Assembly (NCBI RefSeq): GCF_905475395.1
Contig: NC_058341.1
Coordinates: 73,777,597-73,841,596 of the forward strand
Source: Chrysoperla carnea
Lineage: Eukaryota > Arthropoda > Insecta > Neuroptera > Chrysopidae
Length of the DNA: 64,000 bases
Reading direction: 5' to 3'
Under the pieces are notes generated by a model. It ran no database searches. It had not been told where the DNA came from and saw only the letters and a list, made by a program, of their open reading frames with translations. A program made the translations under genes and the position numbers. Position 1 is the first letter of the stretch. Every line of letters starts with the position of its first letter. This document shows positions 5,302 through 64,000 of this stretch, one piece after another.

Positions 5302-7890
5302 ATGGCTGCTGTAACAGAAAATTGCGTAAAATGTTACGCTATTGTGGACTTTATTCAAAAAAGCAGGAAAAAAAAGCGTTCTATCGATTTGGTACCTTCT
5401 TCCTGGGTTTATGACTATGAAGGACAAAGTTTCTGTTATTTCCCTGAACCCGAAGACTACTGTCATCTACCGAAATGGTTAATTGAGTTAAAACCCTATG
5501 AGCAAACTTGGAATGACTATATAGTCACTATTATTTCATACACAGGTGAATGTCAAGTTAATAAAACTTATATTCTACAATTTTTGTATTAAATAATTAA
5601 CTTTCGTTAAAAATTCATTTTTTTATTAGATGATTTAGACCAAGGGTATCGTCGACTACGCAGAGCATTCAAACAATTAGACGTAGAAAGTACCGATACG
5701 GAGATAAATCCTACAAATGTTGAAAATAACGTTTCTATTTTTGATGAAGAAGAAATCAACACTCATCTACAAGATGTACCAAAAATGTCAAAAGGTAAGA
5801 ACATATTTATGTTAGTATTTTATGTTATGTTTATAATAATATGTTCAATACTTTTACAATACATTTTATTAGTAATGAATTGAACATTATTTTGAAGTCT
5901 GCGAAACTTCACCCCCGTGAAGTTGGCCACCGCATTTTTTGTTCCAGAATATAAACCATATGGTTAAGATTATTTATAAAATAGCTTAGTTTTCCATTTT
6001 CACTATTTTTTAACAAAGAACGTAGCCACAGGGAGGTTATATATATGCGAGGGGCAAACTTCACGCACGCTGTGCTGCTTCCTGTGAGGTTAGGACTGAA
6101 ATACTGTAAACGTCAGTTGATAGATATACATTAAAAGACGATTGTTCCAGAATATCAAATTGATCCAACCTCAAATGGGAAAAATGGTTGAGGCTGAGGA
6201 AAAATGAACTCCCGATACTTGAGTAAACACATAGCGCATTCGTTTGTACCAGGCTATTAATAATATTTTTTAAAAGATTACTTATAAACTAGCTGCGTTT
6301 TTTATTTTGGCTCTTTTTTAACCAAAAACGTAGTCACAGGGAGCATTATTTGGATCGGTACTATAAAAGTTATTCTGCGTCGTATTAAAAAAACGCATGT
6401 CAAGGGGGTAGTTTTGGTAGTGTTTGAACTAATTTTGAAGGGTTGTGATGAAAACCTTTACATTTTCCAATAATTCTGTCATTTTGAACTTGTTGCGTGA
6501 AGTTGGCCCCCGCATATATATAACCGCCCTGTGGCTACGTTCTTTGTTTAAAAATAGTGAAAATGGAAAACTAAGCTCTTTCATAAGTAATATTTAAAAA
6601 AATTCTATTAATAGCTTGGTACAAACGAATGCGCTATGTATTTACTCTAGTATCGGGGGTACATTTTTCCTCCCCCACGCCCCGTTTGAGGTTGGATCAA
6701 TTTGATATTCTGGAACAATCGTCTATTAATGTATATCTATCAACTGCAGTTTACAGTATTACAGTACAAACGTCACAAAAAGTAACATTTACATAATTGT
6801 TCATTAGCATATAATTGTCCCCCCATAAGTATCCTCCCCATGGCTGCGGTTTTTAGTAAAAATTACTCAAAATGAAATGCAATACCACTCTAGTAAGAAA
6901 TCGATGATTACAGCTTAATTCAATTGAATTTGCCGGTAACCTTGACGGATCCACAATTAATTGAACTAAAAAGTGAGTGAGTATTCTTTTTTCAGTATGT
7001 TTAAATTATTTACAAAGATTTTCACTTATGGTTATACATTTTTGACATTTTCAGATCAAATAGATACAATGTTGGAGACAAAGTTTTATAACCTCACACT
7101 GATAATGGAAAAAAAAATAGAATCAACGAAAAGAAGCATATTGTATGATATTCAGCACAAAACTGATGAACTTAAAAATACTACAGTTACAACAAATGGA
7201 TCTGCGACATCGATAAATTTAACAGAAGCTAAAAAGAGAGGGATAAATGGATCGTTGCCATTGAAGACATTGGAGGAGTTCGAAGATTTCGATAATAAAC
7301 TCAGAGCGAATGATGAACACAAAGAATCTTTAGTAAGTTATCAATCTGTTAATTTTTATTGTTTTTAATTTTAATGTTTTCAGAAGTCTTTCATAAAACA
7401 TTTCACATGTTTTAATGTTAAATAATTGAATAAATTAAAGAATTAGTAAGTTACAGAAGTTTTTAAATTAATTTATCAAATTTGTATTGCAGATGATTTT
7501 ATATAAGATTATAACAAGGGGCGAATTAAAAATAATGTCTGCTATAAAAAAGACTATGGAAGTGACCATGGAAAAAACGGTGGAGTTAGAATACTCGGGA
7601 ACAGGTCGTACTGTCAATGGCTTGGGGAAAAAAATTTTAGCAATACGGCTACCTACAAATGTTTAGATGGTAAGCTAAGTATGTACACTATAGTGTACGT
7701 ACAAGGTTATACAACAATGAATTTTTAATTGAAGATGAATATTTATATATAAAATTGATGTTTTTCCAGGAGTGCTTTCTGACCAATTTGCGGACTCAGG
7801 AGAGTTGAAAAATTTATCAGGAAAAGTGGGTCGCTGGTTATCTGGTGCAGAGGATCGCCGAGGTGGTCGTAAGGAGCGAACCAAAAAAAA
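5302..7890 (+). pseudogene. Five-exon transposon-associated gene, DUF4806-like, one frameshift
   Basis: Five exons join with consistent phases: 5302-5545, 5630-5794, 7055-7332, 7493-7669 and 7770 to about 7890. The N-terminal part (VVP-like SIDLVPSSWV, then CYFPEPED) and the later LPLKTLEEFEDFDNKL block match a family of insect proteins carrying DUF4806. The end, VLSDQFADSGELKNLSGKVGRWLSGAEDRRGGRKER, is also characteristic. Such genes are common near tnp2-like transposases; a molecular role is not established. Exon 4 needs one more nucleotide to meet exon 5 in frame. The break lies in the A-run at 7627-7633, so the copy is a pseudogene unless the assembly is wrong there. An A-run of 11 near 7885 may also hide the real stop. 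A foldback repeat sits in intron 2. Confidence 0.65.
5925..6780. repeat. Foldback element inside an intron
   Basis: The arm at about 6095-6345 is the inverted copy of about 6505-6770. Shared words include GATAGATATACATTAA, TTGTTCCAGAATATCAAATT and CATAGCGCATTCGTTTGTACCA. A third, partial copy of the inner arm (AACAAAGAACGTAGCCACAGGG) lies at about 5985-6085 in the same orientation as the left arm. The whole block lies between exons 2 and 3 of the DUF4806-like gene and would form a long hairpin if transcribed. Confidence 0.75.
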
Positions 7891-8047
7891 AAATAAACTA
7901 ATAAAATTTATTGTATTTTTAATTCAATATTTTTATAGTCCGAGAGCCGGCTGTGGACAAAACCTATGGATCGAATACATGAACGAGATTGTGTGTGTGA
8001 GTAGTACTCTACAGATGTACTACAGATGTAAACGGAGCCACCGTTAT

Positions 8048-8455
8048 TTGAGGCTGGTTTTGCCCGCATCACGAAAATTTTACGTCACTTCCGGTTACAA
8101 TTTTTTGTGTTTTCTTAAGTGATCGAATACATAATGCAGACTTACATAAAATTGTAGGTTTTCATGTGTACAATAAGATTACCATAGGGTGCCAGACTAA
8201 ATCCACCCGCAACCCTATGGCACCCCTCATCAAAGATATTTTTTTTGTGTCAACCTATGTTATCGAATACATGGATGACTTTATGCTCAAATTAAAGCTT
8301 ATATTTTATACTTTAAGAAAAAAATAGGCTGCCATGATTATTTTGCCCGCATATGCCTGGCTACCTTCTTTAAAATTATTAACATGCATTTAAATACTGT
8401 ATGAAGTCATACATTCTTTAATTTATTTTCTAATATTTTTTCTAACATTTTACTT
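8048..8455 (+). repeat. Left terminal inverted repeat of the Academ-like element
   Basis: Starts TTGAGGCTGGTTTTGCCCGC and includes a near-palindromic core (ACCATAGGGTGCC...GGCACCCC, about 8172-8230). It ends in TAAATACTGTATGAAGTCAT and nearby bases. It pairs with 14812-15372 over its full length with only scattered differences, mainly in A/T runs. Confidence 0.85.
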
Positions 8456-8851
8456 TTTCAAGATTTAGTTAATTGTAAATGTAACAAATAATTTCATTTT
8501 CTTTAAAGGTATGATTTCAGTAGAGTGAGAAAGATAAAAAAACTTATACCAAGCTGCGTTGGAACTTCCAAGTCTCCCTCTATTCACTTCTTTCAGGTAC
8601 ATCTGCGTCGAGGCGACGAGAATTTTGTCCATTTGCTTTATGGTCAAAGTTATATTTATTATAATATAATTGGGGAAATATGACAGGGTAGGGATTCTAT
8701 TACGTGTTCATTTCTAAACGCTTGGGTAACGCTTCTCTACTCTATGCCAGCATTTGATCTCATCGTGTTCTGTCGAGTTTCTTTGCTGTGGTGTGATATT
8801 CTTATTAAATATATATTTTTCTATTGAATATATATTTTCGAAGTTCTACAA

Positions 8852-11800
8852 ATGAATTGTTTTTTGTGTGGAAACTCTGCCAATGTTTTAAAATTAACTG
8901 ATGAGAAATTAAAACAATGTCATCAGATATTGGAGTACAGAGTGGTTAAACAATTCAAATATAGTGACATTATTGTGCCTCAAGATGCTGACAACAATGT
9001 TGGTTATCATTCAGCGTGTTTGAAAAAATTTACAATTCTAAAAGCGCAATATCGTCAAGAATTGAATGAAATGTTTGGAAATGTTGATGTAAGTATTATT
9101 ACTTTTTTGACATTTTTTAATGGCTTCGATACATTAATTATTTTTATATATTCAATAGTACTTGATAAAACTTTCCTACATTAAACTCAAACTGAAAGCT
9201 CTAAATTAAATTATTTATTTTTTGCAGAATTCTCAATGTAGTTCGTCAAGTGTAGGGTTGCTCCAAGAACATTCTGGAAGCGTTTCGCAAGGATCTGACG
9301 TGTTTCCCGAGAGTGATACAACAATGTCAATGGATGTCAGTTTAACCTTGAACACGGTAAGTTTAGAAAACATATTTATTGCTTTCGATTGCTGTACTGC
9401 CTGCCCAGCCCTGATTTAAACGAAGGAAATAATACACTCTGTAGCATTAAGTGTCCATGGTCTTTACCTTACTGCAACTGTTGCTAATTGTTCACTTACA
9501 AAATAGTTTTCAATTGCTTCTCTCAAAGTCTTACACTTTAACTACAGCAACAAGCCCAAAATTTTATTACACTTTTTCCTTTGTCTACTTTGCAAGTGGG
9601 AATGAGACAGGTAGACTCCACTTTCTTACCTGCCCTGTTGGGAACACAAATATATAGAAATGGTCTTCTACCTGTATTTCTTAAACTGATATAAGCCAGA
9701 GCTGGGCAAAGTTTGACTGCAAAGGAACAATTGTAATAGGGTATACCCTATTTCTCTCTCACTCGCACTCCCGAAAGTATACCCGCTCTTCAATCTACCT
9801 GAGGAGCACATGGGAGCGCAAAAAGCACACTTTGTTCAGCTGTGATATAATCAATGCCAGTCCCTTCTCCAATACTATAAATACTTTCATGTCCAAATTA
9901 CATTGTTGAGTCTATAAACTTTAATTTGCTCTTTGAAAATTAATCATTTACTGGGTGTATTTCTGCTAATTCAATTTGTATTCCAGACGACAATGAGTTC
10001 TCTAAGCGTTGTCAGCATGGAGCGAAATGAGCCATCAGCATGTAGCCAAGACATGGATAGTTCACTTGGCGAAGATTTGTCCCAATCAAATACATCAGCA
10101 ATGGAAATTTGTGAAGAAACTCCAGCCACTCCAATTCCATCAACCAGCATGACCAGTGCACAATCATCTGAAGACATAACTGTATGTAATAAACCTATAA
10201 GTTCGCGTAAAAAATGTATCTTTTGTGATAAAGTAGAGCAAATTGTAGGAAAACGGCGACAGTATGTGATAATTAGCTCTTCATATGAAGTTTTCCAGAA
10301 CTTTATGCACTTAGCGGAAATTTTAGACGATAAACAAATGATAGAGGAATTCAATTTGCAAAAAAAGATTCCTTACCATGCCATTTGCCGTACAGTGTAC
10401 CAAAATAAAGCTGAAAAAAAATCGTCAAAACCGAAACATAAAGGTGAATGGCACTTATTAAGATATATACATAAAGAGAGTTTTTCTAGTTTAACAGAGT
10501 TTATAAATCGAGAAGTAGTACGAAATGAAAAAATTTACTTCTTGAGTACTATTTATATGCGTTACAAAGCGATTTTCGATGAAATATGTTTAATTAAAGG
10601 AATTGACAATTGTTTTGGTGATTATACACCACAAAATCTTCAGGAAAAAATTCTTAATGAATACAATGAAGTAGTAGCTATTACCTCATCTAGTGCTCCG
10701 CATAATAAAAAAATAGTTAAAAAAAAAAATTTACAAATGAATAAAGTTTTAACAGATTTTGTTGAAAGCGAAGATAACAAAGTACAAAATGTCGCTTATA
10801 TTGTCCGTAATTCGATAAATGCGATTAAACCCAATTAATTACCAGCTAAAATTACAGTCGACGACATAATTAGAGGTGAATGTCAAGTTCCTGAGGAACT
10901 TTTTAATTTCATGTGTGATCTTATTCAAGGTCCCGATTATAGGCGACGAAATTCAGATGATGATTTAGTAAAAATAAAGTCAATCTGTCAAGATATTATT
11001 TATTGTACTACGAAAGGTAGAATTAAACATCGAAACAATTGATGCTCGGTTTAGCGGTAAAGTCCATGACAAACAGTCGGAAATTATCGACTATGCTAAA
11101 TAATTATAGATCCACGGTCAGTTATAATATTGCTGAGGAATTAGAAACGGAAATGACTACAGTCGCATGTGAAAATGAAAATATCTTACCATCAAGTATT
11201 ACAGCTGATAATACTCTATGCATTAATGTAGCATTTGATAATTATGATAGGTTTGTTGATACAATCAATGGTAAGGATACTTTACATGATACTGTAGGTA
11301 TAGTTTATCAGTTTCCAGCATCTAATAACTTAGAGATTGCAAGACCCAGTACCTCTGTTGAAAATGAAGAGCATTCAACAAATCGCAGAAGACGGAAATT
11401 TGATTTTTTTGGTCGCGATATTCCACCATACCCCAAAAAGCCTGTTGCTGAAAATACCCTTCTACCTCTTAGTGATATTTCTGGAATGATAAGCGGCTGT
11501 AGAGTCTCCAAAGACAGCGCAGTTATAAAAGATATAGTATGGAGTTTATGTTTTTCTTTATTGCCATCAACACCAATGTGGTTAGGTTTTCATAGTAAAC
11601 TTTCCATCGATAACAGTGAAAAACAGATAGTTGATTATTTTCCACCTCTAAACCATTCACCTACAAACTATAGCGTCGTTTATGAAACAATGGTCATTTC
11701 ACAAAAAATTGCCACACAATGTAATCAGCCTAGAATAATTGTGACTTATGATCTTGCCATTGCTAAAATGGCGATGCAAATACAATTAACTGAATGTCCT

Positions 11801-58060: not shown

Positions 58061-58319
58061 GTATTAGTGGTGAGAGAGTGTTATTCCATGTTGAGACGCG
58101 TGAGGTACCTTATCAAGCAGGTTGGTTGTAAATCAAATTTTATGTACATAAAATATTGAGAATTAATCCAGCTATTTGGATTTTCTCACTTAAGTTCATT
58201 TAATTAAAAATTAATGTTAACAATAATGAACGGTCATTAACTTGTATATTTGAAATAAAAATACAAGGTTTATTTTGTGATTCATGCTTAGTGATGGATG
58301 CTGTGCATTCATTTAAGTA

Positions 58320-58928
58320 GAAGAGTCAGGTCACTCCTGGCGCAGATGGATGGTACACTTTTCAAAAAAGGGCAAACCTAGGTGAATGTTGGAAACCTCG
58401 GTTGAATGCGAAGTTGGAGGGGATAGATGACGTCATTGACCAATAGTAAATCAAGATGGCGTTGGGAGGTGTGGTGGGGCGTGGCTGACAGAGCGTTAGT
58501 GTGTTTCTTGGCGGAAGTGGGGCTTAAAGTGGTGGGCGTGGTTTTGGAAGTGGGGGTTAAAGGGGGGCGGGAATTGGACGTTAGATGAGATAATCGAGCC
58601 CACTTTCAACCCCAAAGTATGGTACACTTTTCCAAAAAGGGCAAACCTAGGTGAATGTTGGAAACCTCGGCATTGACCAATAGTAAATCAAGATGGCGTC
58701 GGGAGGTGTGGTGTTGGGGAATAATGGCTGCCTAAGCATTGATGACGTCATTGGCTTTGACCAATAGTAGCACTGTAAAAATCAAGATGGCGTCGGGAGG
58801 TATGGTTGAATTGGTGGGGAGGAATGGCTGCCTAAGCATAAACGGGAAATTACCAGGTGACGTCATTGGCTTTGACCAATAGTGGTGCTTGACGGAGAGT
58901 GAACGGGGGGCGGGACGTTGACATTAGT
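58320..58928. promoter_or_regulatory. Tandem CRE / CCAAT / YY1-like modules, GC-rich
   Basis: TGACGTCATTG is followed by GACCAATAGT in modules at about 58430, 58742 and 58858; a module at 58674 has only the CATTGACCAATAGT part. AATCAAGATGGCGT follows in three of them (58450, 58690, 58780). These are perfect CRE (TGACGTCA), CCAAT and YY1/Pho-like (AAGATGGCG) words. A separate 50-bp unit (GGTACACTTTTC...GGAAACCTCGG) occurs at 58352 and 58620, and GGAATAATGGCTGCC-like words at 58720 and 58823. The local GC content is far above the surroundings. Enhancer function is inferred. Confidence 0.65.
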
Positions 58929-59790
58929 CAGCAATTTTCAAGAATATGTTAATTTGACCTTGAAAAATATTGTAATTTGACACTTTAAATATACATGATA
59001 AAATTCAAGATACGTGACCGGATGTTAATATTTTTTTTTTATTGAGTCAGCGATGTAATATGACACTTGAAATTTACATAATAAAAATACATGTTCAAAC
59101 TTGTTTGAATGGACTTTGATCTTAAAATAATTTTACACGTGTCAGCAATTTTCAAGAATATGTTGAAATAGATTTGACCTTGAAAAATATGATATCATCA
59201 TCTTGTAACAAGTTCAAACTTGTTTGAAATAATTTTACATGTGTCAAAACACGTGACCGGATGCTAATATTTTTTTATGATTAAGCAATGTAATATGACA
59301 CTTGAACGTGTTAGATAATAATTTGCAAATCTGAATTCCAAGAAAAGAATATTATGAGTCTGCAATTTTCAAGAATATGTTGAAATAGATATCATCTAAC
59401 CTTGAAAAATATTGTAATTTGACACTTTAAGTAGACATGATAAAATTCAAGATACGTGACCGGATGTTAATATTTTTTTTATTGAATCAGCAATATAATA
59501 TGACACTTGAAATTTACATAATAAAAATACATGTTTAAACTTGTTTGAACTTGTTTAAACTTGTCTGAATTCCAAGAAAAAATAATTAGTTTGAATTACG
59601 ATTATAAAAATATCAAATTACAAGATTTGACCTTGAAAAATATGATATCATCATCCTGTTACAAGTTCAAACTTGTTTGAATAAAAATACATGTTCAAAC
59701 TTGTTTGAACATGTTTAAACTTGTTTGAATCGCATTAGATCTTCAAATAATTTTACACGTGTTATGAGATTAGATAATAATTTCTGCTGG
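58929..59790. repeat. Tandem repeats of about 210-270 bp with palindromic cores
   Basis: Units starting CAGCAATTTTCAAGAATATGTT at about 58932, 59142 and 59353, and a partial one from 59624. Shared blocks: GACCTTGAAAAATAT, ACGTGACCGGATG, AATATGACACTTGAA and the palindrome TTCAAAC-TT-GTTTGAA, present in full or near form at about 59094, 59212, 59535, 59665 and 59695 with further half-sites. Lies directly upstream of the TATA promoter of the 59885 ORF. No coding frame. Confidence 0.8.
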
Positions 59791-59818
59791 TGGGGGATTT
59801 TTGGAGTGGTGGTAATCA

Positions 59819-59856
59819 TATAAAAAAGGCGCTCGACATTACGGTAATATCAGTTT
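59819..59856 (+). promoter_or_regulatory. TATA box plus CAGT initiator
   Basis: TATAAAAAA at 59819 and TCAGTTTTC with its A at 59852, 33 bp apart, followed 33 bp later by the ATG at 59885. This is the standard arthropod TATA-Inr arrangement and the cleanest core promoter in the window. Confidence 0.75.
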
Positions 59857-59884
59857 TCATTAAATATTCATAATATTAATCAAA

Positions 59885-60256
59885 ATGAATAGAGCAGAAT
59901 TAAAATTATTAGATAGTTGTTTAGTGCGACCATGCATAAAAATGGACGACTTGCCACTGAAAAAAAAATTAAAAATACTAAAAATGGAGCGGATTCTAAC
60001 GATACATGGGCCATCAATAAAAGTTTTAGTGGATATAAGCCTAGATGGTACAGAAAACGAGGGAGTTTTTCTACCATCTAGGTTTGCAGTGTTGACGGAC
60101 AACATGATTAAATTATTTAACACAAAACCGGGGTATTTGAGGGTGGAGGAGAAAATTGGAAGAAGTCACCAACTGAGACTGCGCCTATTCGAAGACGATG
60201 GTGATAGTGATGATGATGATGATAATGACTATGTTCAAGAACATCAAAATTTTTAA
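59885..60256 (+). CDS. Intact 123-aa protein with acidic tail, virus-like context
   Basis: ATG at 59885, 33 bp after a strong initiator. The first 40 residues are mixed and basic (CIKMDDLPLKKKLKI). A middle block reads VLVDISLDGTENEGVFLPSRFAVLTDNMIKLF (about residues 53-84). The end is very acidic (DDGDSDDDDDNDY, about residues 103-115). No signal peptide or membrane segment. The compact layout (promoter, short leader, intact frame) stands out among dead transposons. I do not recognise the family with certainty; the central FLPSRF...LTD region recalls small proteins of insect DNA viruses or their endogenous relatives. Function unknown. Confidence 0.6.
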   Translation: MNRAELKLLDSCLVRPCIKMDDLPLKKKLKILKMERILTIHGPSIKVLVDISLDGTENEGVFLPSRFAVLTDNMIKLFNTKPGYLRVEEKIGRSHQLRLRLFEDDGDSDDDDDNDYVQEHQNF

Positions 60257-60377
60257 CAAATCATTCTTATATTGAATTTTATTACTGCAAGATATATATA
60301 TTTTATTGTTATTGTTATAAAAAAATTGTAAAGTTTATGTTTTTGATATTTAAAAAAAAAATAATACTAAATAAATT

Positions 60378-61050
60378 ATGGATATTTTTGTAAAAAATGG
60401 TGTTTATTTTAATTCATTACAATTATGGGGTACAATGTCGCTACAAAATCATATTGATCTGTTTCAAAATTCGGAGATGATTTACCCAGAATATTTTAAT
60501 GTGAGTATTGTTTGATAAGATCTGTTTAGAAAATTGTAGCCAAATATTTTTATAGATGGAATTTTATCAACTTATGGAGGCATGTCGTTGGAGTATACCT
60601 ACAAAGTTAATCGACACATTACGGTATTCTTATTTAGAAGTTGATGATTGCTTTCATATTGCTGCATTTATAGTAAGAAATTGTTTGGATGCAATCTTAT
60701 TTGTAAATTATGCGAAAAAGTTCAACTACTTTAAAAGAGATTTCAATCAGTTTGAAATATTACTAAATGAATGTTGTGATGATCTTATCCATGGAAGTAA
60801 CTTGAGAAAAAATTGGGGTACATACGATATCCGTCGAAAACAATGGATTGGTGATAGTGCTAGACATGATGAGAGAATGTTTTTATGGTATCAACAAATA
60901 GATCCTGAAATTCTCTGTAGAATGCTATACCAACAAATGGATGGTGGAAATATACCGAAATGGTTCGAGCCATGGATATGTGTTACAAATTGTAATGAAA
61001 TAGACAGATGTGATTGTGGAAGAAATAGTGATCATCATGATTGTATATAG
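60378..61050 (+). CDS. Intact two-exon 205-aa protein with C-terminal Cys cluster (possibly densovirus NS3-like)
   Basis: Exon 1 60378-60500 ends at a GTGAGT donor, exon 2 60556-61050 begins after TATAG; both are phase 0 and the joint frame is 205 codons without lesions. Helical middle (DDCFHIAAFIVRNCLDAILF, about residues 72-91). A GTYDIRRKQWIGDSARHDER region follows, then PKWFEPW. The end has a C-x3-C-x5-C-x-C-x8-C cluster (about residues 181-202), a probable zinc site. The size, PKWFEPW block and Cys cluster remind me of the small non-structural protein NS3 of ambisense densoviruses, but this is memory-based and unverified. No NS1 helicase or capsid gene is present between here and 62.6 kb. 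It follows the 59885 ORF by 121 bp on the same strand. Confidence 0.6.
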
Positions 61051-61157
61051 AAATAAAAACATGAATATAATTGTCTATGATAAGTTTTTTTTAAAATGTG
61101 TTTGTATTTACAATAAAAAACACCTATAATTTAATTAATCATCGTTTTGTTTTATCT

Positions 61158-62190
61158 ATGAAATGACCTCACCACCTTATTTTCAGGTTATAAATACACC
61201 TTGTTTGTGATAATTATATTCGCACCATCAAGTAATTTTGAGTAATAAACATGAATCAAAAAACATTTGTATAACAACAATATTTTTATATTGTTTTGTG
61301 TTAGTTAAAAATTGCTTCAATATAATTTCATGAACCTAGTCTAATATATATTCATATTAAAAAATACATCTCCTTTTTTAAAACACAAATATGTTCACAA
61401 AAGCGGTCCACTATGACAAAATTTTTTTGTTACAAGTATGTTCGCAAAAACTTTCCACTATAAAAGGAGACTTTTTTTATCAATATATGAATCATGTAAA
61501 GAGTCGAACCCTAACCACCTGACTTTAACGTTAGATCCATGTTTAGCTAAGACCTTTTCCACTAAATAAATGTTTGTTTTGTGTTAAATAGATCAGAAAT
61601 TTCAGAATAAAAAATCATTTTATAAAATCTATGTATTTTTATTTTTAAATATTTATAATACAACACTGTTTTTTAAATAAGATACTTACAATAAAAAAAA
61701 AAATTTTTACAATGTGATATTTTTTATTTTTTTATAAAACACAAATATGTTCACAAAAGCGGTCCACTATGACAAATTTTTGTTTGTTACAGGTATGTTC
61801 GCAAAAACGTTCCACTATAAAAGAAGACTTTTTTTATCAATATATGAATCATGTAAAGAGTCGAACCCTAACCACCGGACTTTAAATTTGGAGCTAAGAC
61901 CTTTTCCACTAAATAAATGTTTGGATTGTAAACTTTTTGTAATTCTTCAGCATAGAAACCACCCTTTATATCATCGTTGTGACCTCACCACCTTATTTTC
62001 AGGTTATAAATACACCTTATTTGTGACAATTATATTCACACCATCAAGTAATTTGTTTTGTGTTAGTTAAAAATTGCTTCAATAAAATTTCATGATCATA
62101 TTAACCTAGTCTAATATATATTCATATTAAAAAATACATCTCCTTTTTTTAAAACACAAATATGTTCACAAAAGCGGTCCACTTTGGATT
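61158..62190. repeat. Direct repeats with embedded TATA boxes downstream of the virus-like genes
   Basis: A unit (GACCTCACCACCTTATTTTCAGG...ATAAATACACC...CACCATCAAGTAATT) occurs at about 61164 and 61980. A second unit (ATATGTTCACAAAAGCGGTCCACT) occurs at about 61389, 61746 and 62159. It is followed in two of them by TGTTCGCAAAAAC..TCCACTATAAAAG and then GAATCATGTAAAGAGTCGAACCCTAACC. CTATAAAAG and TTATAAATAC are TATA-like. No gene follows that would need these promoters; short frames here are chance. Confidence 0.75.
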
Positions 62191-62640
62191 GTGAACTCTT
62201 TGTAATTCTTAGCAACCGCATAGAAACCGCCCTTTATATCATCATTGTTGTAGTCATTCAGTAAACATGTTCTTGGGTTTGTAATTGGGATGTTTCACCT
62301 CGCGATTGGTGAATATTTCCGGTGTCCATGATGAATGAAAACCATGACGCTGTTCTAAATTTACATATCCTAGATACAGACCTGTTTAACCCAATGTTGA
62401 ACAAATAGAGTCTGATCAACCAAGCGAATTAATCTCATGGGATAATTCTAATACAACAGACGGTAACTTCTTGTAATTATGTATGCAACAGATACAGAAT
62501 ATGGATTCTTTTTCTTGTGAATATTTGCAAAATGCAGAAATATTGTAAATAATAACCCAATATTTTAAATGTAATGTAATGTAAGAAGGTTTTATTTTAA
62601 TAAAATTATTTAAAATTTTTTTCATGTATTTAATACATCA
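62191..62640. other. Unassigned spacer
   Basis: No gene. 62210-62345 is slightly less AT-rich, then plain AT-rich DNA leads to the AAT microsatellite. Confidence 0.3.
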
Positions 62641-62641
62641 A

Positions 62642-62680
<39 letters not shown>
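62641..62680. repeat. (AAT)n microsatellite
   Basis: About 13 AAT/ATA units directly before the RT coding block. It is in frame with the RT and would encode an Asn run if translated. Such tracts are often 3' tails of LINEs, so it may be the tail of a neighbouring element. Confidence 0.9.
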
Positions 62681-64000
62681 GATGCAATAAATCCAACAAA
62701 ATACAGACCCATCACATGTCTATCTACACTATACAAGTTAATCACTTCATGCATCACACAAAAAATTTACACACACATTACAGACAACAACATTCTCGCA
62801 GAGGAGCAAAAGGGCTGTCGGAAACTATCAAGAGGTTGTAAGGAGCAACTCATTATAGACTCGGTGGTGACCGAACAGGCCAAACACAACAACAGAAGCA
62901 TGTACACAGCTTACATAGATTACAAAAAAGCATTTGATTCCGTGCCGCATTCCTGGCTTCAGAGAGTATTGAATTTATACAAAATTGACGAACACATTAT
63001 ACAATTTTTAACACACGCCATGTCGTTATGGACAACCACTCTAAATTTAACACACAATAGCACGACCATTACCACAGATACCATACACATTAGACGAGGT
63101 ATCTTCCAGGGAGACTCATTGAGCCCCCTTTGGTTCTGTCTCGCTCTTAATCCACTATCACATATACTCACAGATTCGGGATGCGGTTTCAAGGTAAAGT
63201 TCGACAAAGAATTCCATAAAATATCTCACCTTTTTTACATGGATGACTTGAAACTGTATGCCTCCACACAAACACAATTAACACATCTAATGCGACTGAC
63301 TGAAATATTCTCTGCTGACATCCGGATGGAATTCGGTACTGACAAATGCAAAACACAACACATACATGCTGACCCAGGAACGCCTGTTTTATTTGACCTG
63401 CAAAATGGTGGTGTCATTAGCCCCATGGAAGAGGGACAATTTTACAGCTATCTTGGTGTGCTGCAATCACAAGGCATCCCACACACAGATATAAAACAAA
63501 CACTTACACAACACTACATACAAAGAATTCAAAACATACTCAAAAGTGGCCTTGATGGTAGAAATACCGTTAGAGCCATCAACACATACGCTACACCATT
63601 TCTCACATATTCCTTCGGAATCATAAAGTGGACAAACACAGACATTAAAAACATACAAATTAAAACACGAACAATCATGACAAAACACAGAATACACCAC
63701 ATACACTCATCATCAGCCAGGTTGGTTTTACCACGGTCTTTAGGAGGACGTGGTCTCACAGATATCCAACTATTACACGATCGCCAGCTCCATAGCCTAC
63801 GCGAGTACTTCCAATCTAAAACACACACATCACACTTACACAATGCCATAACATCCGCAGACAAGTCATACACGCCACTTAACATGCACACAACACAACA
63901 CTCTCTTCCACCAACCAAAACACAACACACATCCACAAACATGCAGACATGGAAAACGAAGGTTTTACATGGAAGGTATTTTCATGAGCTTAGTCACGAC
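62681..64000 (+). CDS. Non-LTR retrotransposon reverse transcriptase, open at the window end
   Basis: Uninterrupted plus-strand frame from about 62681 to the last base (about 440 codons), 5'-truncated at a microsatellite. Motifs: TKYRPITCLSTLYKLI, ILAEEQKGCRK, YTAYIDYKKAFDSVPHSWL (motif A, about 62905-62960), RRGIFQGDSLSPLWFCLALNPLS (motif B, about 63092-63162) and HLFYMDDLKLYAS (motif C, about 63228-63268). The C-terminal half has RAINTYATPFLTYSFGIIKW and SARLVLPRSLGGRGLTD, the layout of a large animal RT group usually annotated as R2-like. No endonuclease is visible inside the window. Rich in ACA/CAC codons. No lesions, so a young copy. An ATG at 62624 is in frame through the AAT tract but is probably accidental. 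Confidence 0.8.

Follow-up and report, generated by a model that had tools for sequence, protein, structure and literature searches.

A two-gene unit in the lacewing Chrysoperla carnea is very probably one arm of a Polinton/Maverick-family element with an unusual half-genome structure

In a 64,000-nucleotide stretch of the 559-Mb Chrysoperla carnea genome (C5:73777597-73841596; hereafter, the window), a first-pass annotation had singled out two adjoining genes, here called open reading frame (ORF) A and ORF B, as a self-contained, virus-like unit of 3.9 kb. The locus raises the question of what kind of genetic entity these genes belong to. The segment from 58316 to ~62673 is very probably the first 4.36 kb of the left arm in a Polinton/Maverick-family element of 24,065 bp, with ORFs A and B as putative accessory genes. 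Its kind is known; its half-genome structure is unusual.

The ends of the element carry most of this identification. The true left end lies at 58316, and not at 58320 as first proposed, and reads AGTAGAAGAGTC directly after CATTTA. The right end, at locus L015 (the same place as L031), reads ...GACTCTTCTACT followed by CATTTA, indicating a single insertion with a 6-bp target duplication that spans C5:73835912-73859976 and is cut by the window edge. Of the 20 fetched loci L009-L028, 18 have their first match to the window at 58307-58349. A stand-alone virus-like unit is ruled out by this right end together with the target duplication; what had been described as self-contained is instead one end of the larger element. 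The reported lack of a recognized terminal repeat also proved incorrect: a very long inverted arm is present, with its partner outside the window. This second arm, inverted and ~19 kb rightward, holds ORFs A and B too, and the two arms are 99.47% identical over 4359 nt (window 58316-62673 versus L015). Nor does the unit end at 62190; the arm reaches ~62673, is interrupted by a long interspersed nuclear element (LINE), and then continues beyond the window, with identity resuming at 97.9% over 1806 nt (element positions 7266-9040 versus 19744-17940). Because the arms continue past the ~2.9-kb LINE insertion, arm length is estimated at ~6.1 kb. The arms differ by 16 substitutions in 4329 aligned sites; at 2.9e-9 per site and generation, a rate from other insects, this corresponds to ~0.6 million generations, given arms identical at insertion and free of gene conversion.

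The suspicion of a viral origin was borne out in that the unit is virus-derived, but its kind is that of a Polinton/Maverick end (6-bp duplication, AGT...ACT termini, and relatives with capsid, PolB, and integrase) and not densovirus-like. Genes of this kind are what define Polintons/Mavericks (PMC4028283, PMC8097293). The lacewing capsid is a double jelly-roll protein (PF21738) with 128 matches in the genome, and it was found in 14 of the 44 elements delimited by paired termini (see below). At L026, ORFs A and B adjoin genes for a capsid (PF21738, 9.3e-71) and a phospholipase A2 (PLA2; PF08398, 6.6e-15); IMG/VR held no close relative of either protein. The family PolB was traced by a 575-aa frame with 76 matches (best 76 of 358 candidates). 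Alone, this frame fell below the PF03175 pass in hmmscan; across 577 aa it shares 44% identity with the L035 polymerase, from another Polinton family here, which matches PF03175 at 1.2e-31. In total, the genome contains 49 PF03175 matches. For integrase, a 308-aa relative from another local Polinton family matches rve at 36.6 bits (cutoff, 32.6). The first-pass annotation had named a match of both proteins to a known transposon family as evidence against its own reading; such a tie exists by genomic association and not by protein similarity.

At L032:834-4205, the family PolB is split into open frames of 575, 109, and 419 aa. Since 72 of the 76 scored 575-aa frame places are stop-free, decay seems a less likely cause of the split than introns or separate proteins. 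Beside this polymerase lies a 145-aa protein (L032:165-599; also L016:5640-6071) that recurs in 10 fetched loci. In the copies examined, a P-loop ATPase occupies two overlapping frames (L026:3074-3821 and other loci), which may reflect an intron, a programmed frameshift, or a shared lesion. Other Polinton families with long polymerase frames plus capsid occur at C1:136653486, C3:14286048, C2:82101604, and other sites.

A terminus pattern was found 164 times in the genome (88 + 76), versus 0 for the reversed control, the pattern itself limiting which variants are detectable. Among 100 of these termini, 44 pairs lay within 30 kb, spanning 11.3-27.6 kb (median, 14.8 kb); the two elements exceeding 26 kb owe their content to nesting of another element or to additional PolB copies. 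Family members have AG/AGT ... CT/ACT ends and inverted repeats, and perfect 6-bp target duplications, each of a different sequence, flank all 12 elements checked. Copies cluster at C1:137.7-140.0 Mb, C5:61-74 Mb, and C6:0.9-19 Mb, including one element nested inside another (C1:139091966-139118080).

By the coordinates of matches, element ends carry one of a few "halves" (polymerase, capsid, or A/B), and the halves are paired as polymerase plus capsid, polymerase plus A/B, or symmetrically. Fifteen of the 44 elements had ORF B and PolB without capsid, and 10 (15.7-16.4 kb) had capsid and PolB, none of them with ORF B; near-full integrase matches (47-48% identical to the 308-aa relative) were present in 10/10 of the latter and 0/15 of the former. 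The others comprised eight in which PolB occurred without ORF B or capsid (one with integrase), five in which ORF B stood alone (in one as a decayed piece), three with capsid only, one with ORF B and capsid, and two with none of the three. These tables used selected matches (ORF A, 42/109; ORF B, 37/76; capsid, 20/128; PolB, 47/76; integrase, 36/150), and a repeat on the contigs bearing the pairs (87 capsid matches, 60 integrase matches, and 25 from the first PolB search) left the counts unchanged. Both ORFs A and B occur in 20/44 mapped elements.

Symmetric elements account for 5/44: two A/B-A/B (the window copy, with intact A/B twice, and C1:138451995), two PolB-PolB, and one capsid-capsid. 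Symmetry offsets were 4460/4460, 4112/4110, 3775/3775, and 2158/2158, and 2240/2235 in the window copy (at most 5 bp apart), symmetry being established by sequence for the window copy and by coordinates and strand for the other four. In a sixth case, L016, whose left end falls outside the terminus pattern, the A/B arms share 99.4% identity across 2752 nt. The reading direction of PolB, capsid, and ORFs A and B is inward from their own end, with ATPase and the integrase tail in the opposite direction. At A/B loci, protease and PLA2 genes are broken or absent, penton and capsid were matched only in L026, and a minisatellite lies mid-element. This minisatellite encodes VLNRSKPVLNRYRP-like repeats (L031:460-1569, L013:8751-9539, L018:909-1638, and others), with frames in 23 loci.

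The termini also carry a trace of how ends are related. After the constant AGTAGAAGAGTCA, 16 nt (window 58329-58344) form a terminal code with 30 variants among 100 termini, built by combining a few short blocks. The same variant stood at both ends of 28/44 elements, compared with 2.1 expected and no more than 9 in 10,000 shuffles. By class, ends matched in 8/10 capsid-plus-PolB, 8/15 ORF B-plus-PolB, 5/5 symmetric, and 7/14 other elements. At C5:61400113, C5:68455897, and C2:75471851, the two ends differ in variant although the target duplications agree; thus, the unlike ends predate integration. We infer that ends are copied from one another in replication and occasionally swapped between elements.

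Several points weigh against this account of the family. The 44 pairs derive from 100/164 termini, a set that leaves out the small contigs entirely and C6 for the most part; target duplications confirm only 12/44 pairs. Classes were assigned by placing match coordinates on the pairs, and as only the best candidates were scored (PolB, 76 of 358; capsid, 126 of 145; integrase, 150 of 309), an apparent absence may reflect a missed match. Among the 15 ORF B-plus-PolB elements, C1:139091966-139118080 encloses another, whose genes were perhaps counted, and the "ORF B only" element at C1:138313920 is just a decayed 60-residue piece. ORF B and capsid occur together in 1/44 elements versus 6.7 expected from their counts, but the Fisher p of 0.00026 overstates independence, the elements being related by descent. 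Searches of the window, L030, and L031 found no PolB, penton, or capsid match in the window element, its integrase consisting of tail fragments and its ATPase and protease of broken pieces, so that no gene was found by which this copy could replicate, package, or integrate on its own. In relatives, the P-loop ATPase scores below Pfam cutoffs for both Pox_A32 and ATPase_2, and the L026 ORFs positioned as penton and protease genes owe their names to position and to presumed motifs; neither has a Pfam match, and the protease has no PDB match either. Finally, copies without capsid are not the only ones to carry ORFs A and B, which accompany capsid in C5:66419678, and ORF A, ORF B, capsid, integrase, and PolB occur in series at C6:7.95 Mb, C6:2.17 Mb, and C1:138.22 Mb. 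At these three older places, whose ends are unmapped, the arrangement makes A/B look like part of the gene set of a complete ancestor, not inventions of the capsid-less class.

The two frames that had been called intact genes are open throughout (Table 1). The small ORF B intron proposed earlier was corroborated by an NCBI C. carnea protein (LOC123296232, 186 aa) that has the identical junction, with PEYFN before and MEFYQ after it, and starts 19 residues later than ORF B. Its GT..AG boundaries are kept in 23/23 copies (the window plus 20 loci, two of which have two copies), with a length of 55 nt in 22 and 73 nt in one. Additional copies, which the first-pass annotation had advised looking for, exceed chance: ORF B exon 2 has 76 genome matches, with 58 spanning all 164 residues and 53 of these stop-free, and ORF A has 109, with 47 spanning all 123 residues, none with a stop. 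Both ORFs are under moderate constraint. The ratio of nonsynonymous to synonymous polymorphism (pN/pS) was 0.45 for ORF B exon 2 (11 distinct sequences from 23) and 0.47 for ORF A codons 1-101 (six distinct sequences). The corresponding divergence ratio (dN/dS) for ORF A was 0.32-0.44 when the window copy was set against five copies from a diverged lineage (five nonindependent comparisons) and 0.54-1.38 inside that lineage (10 comparisons, few changes each), which points to constraint during multiplication followed by near-neutral decay. Among 5.8 billion proteins, ORF A had no match, and ORF B matched only C. carnea itself (P0003) and P0004, a homologue, located on a 1248-bp contig, which is 61-62% identical and keeps C-x5-C-x-C-x8-C.

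Regulatory and repeat features of the arm are listed in Table 1. The TATA-CAGT promoter noted earlier recurs: the window and each of the 21 fetched ORF A copies compared have both TATAAAAAA and TCAGTT, and in the window the first T of the TATA box lies 33 nt from the A of CAGT. The GC-rich upstream modules are indeed present at 58428-58882, which contains 3/4 window copies of TGACGTCA, 4/4 of GACCAATAG, and 3/3 of AAGATGGCG, but they vary between copies, as the number of TGACGTCA in the 1.7 kb upstream of ORF A ranges from 0 to 3 in other elements. Their motifs may correspond to cAMP response element (CRE), NF-Y, and YY1-like sites. Repeats flank the two genes on both sides, as first described; in 16/20 fetched loci, but not in the window copy, the AT-rich array recurs as a second copy 3' of ORF B. 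Integrase tails also lie 3' of ORF B in other copies. The LINE inserted in the arm is similar to elements of the Dong/R4 type, whose targets are TAA repeats, and its reverse transcriptase also occupies L030:1-1386.

Table 1. Features of the left arm and its borders (window coordinates)
Feature	Position	Strand	Basis or remark
Target site duplication CATTTA, 6 bp	58310..58315	.	partner right after right end at C5:73859976, outside window
Left terminus: AGTAGAAGAGTCA, then 16-nt variable code GGTCACTCCTGGCGCA	58316..58344	+	identical at right end of element
GC-rich arm end, duplicated modules	58316..58930	+	TGACGTCA at 58428, 58743, 58858; GACCAATAG x4; AAGATGGCG x3
AT-rich degenerate repeat array of arm	58923..59774	+	sequence
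TATA box TATAAAAAA from 59819 and TCAGTT initiator from 59850	59819..59855	+	kept among copies
ORF A, 123 aa, acidic tail	59885..60256	+	open frame
ORF B exon 1, 41 aa	60378..60500	+	open frame
ORF B intron, 55 nt, GT..AG	60501..60555	+	junction match to NCBI protein; kept in copies
ORF B exon 2, 164 aa	60556..61050	+	C-terminal C-x5-C-x-C-x8-C
AATAAA	61052..61057	+	directly 3' of ORF B stop codon
AT-rich direct repeats downstream of ORF B	61164..62190	.	sequence
Polinton integrase C-terminal tail, three decayed fragments	61476..61963	-	found with 46-residue tail from L018
LINE-type reverse transcriptase frame, foreign to element	62624..64000	+	inserted at (AAT)n tract 62642-62679 in left arm; leaves window; insert ~2.9 kb

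An endogenous densovirus or bidnavirus-like unit, with ORF B as a relative of NS3, would fit the TATA-CAGT promoter, the intron, and the Cys-rich C terminus of ORF B, and the PLA2 in relatives is of the family Phospholip_A2_4, which is linked to parvovirus capsids. NS3 proteins are widespread among arthropod viruses and have four Cys in common (PMC4061559). At the sequence level no relationship to densoviruses or NS3 was seen, though NS3 proteins themselves were not available for direct comparison: Pfam, PDB sequences, and IMG/VR gave zero matches to ORF A or B, and PHROGs gave nothing better than an E value of 0.083. Sequence matches to ORF B are confined to its own family. The fold search against BFVD was likewise empty (38 matches up to an E value of 10, none at ≤0.001), but it says little, as the AlphaFold models of ORF B exon 2 were poor (predicted local distance difference test scores of 37.6 and 48.7). 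A densovirus genome measures ~4-6 kb and is without target duplication, whereas the unit found here is 24,065 bp with a 6-bp duplication and has relatives with Polinton-type capsid, PolB, and integrase. We therefore regard a densoviral or bidnaviral origin as extremely unlikely. It is also very unlikely that ORFs A and B are captured lacewing genes now serving the host. NCBI does list one copy as a lacewing protein, and most full-length copies keep intact frames; however, the 58 full-length ORF B copies are dispersed, 20/44 mapped elements contain both ORFs, and ORF A dN/dS is near neutral within the diverged lineage compared with lower values between lineages.

A further alternative is that A/B elements are satellites parasitizing complete Polintons, with A/B as the genes of parasitism. 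The division between 15 ORF B-plus-PolB elements lacking capsid and near-full integrase and 10 capsid-plus-PolB-plus-integrase elements lacking ORF B, with 1/44 combining ORF B and capsid, speaks for this reading. At the three older places, however, A/B stand in series with capsid, integrase, and PolB and so seem to predate capsid loss, and we consider this explanation possible but doubtful. The mutual avoidance of ORF B and capsid also led us to consider a bipartite genome with shared ends, an idea weakened by PolB in both classes and by all genes lying in series at those places.

Adintoviruses, attributed to Starrett et al. (2021), are reportedly Polinton-type animal viruses with accessory genes; the lacewing elements are known here as genomic copies, and their ORFs A and B have no described match in the libraries used. 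Adenoviruses and poxviruses produce symmetric defective genomes and terminal duplications in which one end is copied onto the other, whereas the lacewing forms are genomic insertions with target duplications. Bidnaviridae have segments with shared terminal repeats. Bidnaviruses resemble the lacewing family in a PolB of Polinton origin and have an NS3 accessory protein with four Cys (PMC4061559); the lacewing elements, unlike them, are integrated double-stranded DNA with double jelly-roll capsid genes. The closest likeness is to vertebrate Mavericks (PMC8097293), which share the 6-bp target duplication, AGT...ACT-type ends, inverted repeats, a length of 12.7-24.6 kb, two inward-facing gene blocks, terminal accessory regions, double jelly-roll capsid, PolB, and integrase. 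Their arms measure 46-1447 bp, compared with ~6.1 kb in the window copy, and the lacewing family differs further in ORFs A/B, symmetric half-genomes, a class without capsid and integrase, and a combinatorial terminal code. Symmetric half-genome copies, the capsid- and integrase-less A/B class, and the terminal code have no counterpart in the literature covered. Among the papers listed in literature searches, which did not extend to Repbase or Dfam, titles and abstract openings revealed no treatment of Chrysoperla Polintons, and no treatment of palindromic or half-genome Polintons was found.

How such elements might multiply can be outlined. PolB, primed by a protein, would replicate the linear DNA. 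Symmetric genomes could arise when a replicating strand snaps back or switches template, as in the symmetric forms of adenovirus defective genomes, and annealing of ends could make two termini alike. Integrase from complete elements would insert the DNA in trans, duplicating 6 bp of target. The TATA-initiator promoter of the arm may drive ORFs A and B as accessory genes, which would most likely have an early role in replication or in the host cell, ORF B through its four-Cys module, which is probably metal binding. A/B elements without capsid and integrase would be mobilized in trans. In its full form, which we offer tentatively and hold to be possible rather than likely, the Polinton family may consist of half-genomes that can be exchanged; the polymerase, capsid, and A/B halves would each have an end of their own and occur in several pairings, including near-perfect symmetric ones. 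A/B-plus-polymerase elements would then be self-replicating partners of complete elements, packaged and integrated in trans, and the terminal code, copied from end to end, would record which ends had replicated together.

The family bears on the open question of how far animal Polintons live as viruses, as transposons, or in both ways. With complete, capsid- and integrase-less, and symmetric copies in one genome, who mobilizes whom becomes testable, and matching terminal codes provide a readable trace of end copying in linear genomes. The proteins of ORFs A and B are conserved, yet the libraries searched contain no known relative of either. Should ORF B be NS3-like, it would indicate a Polinton source for the bidnavirus NS3 gene.

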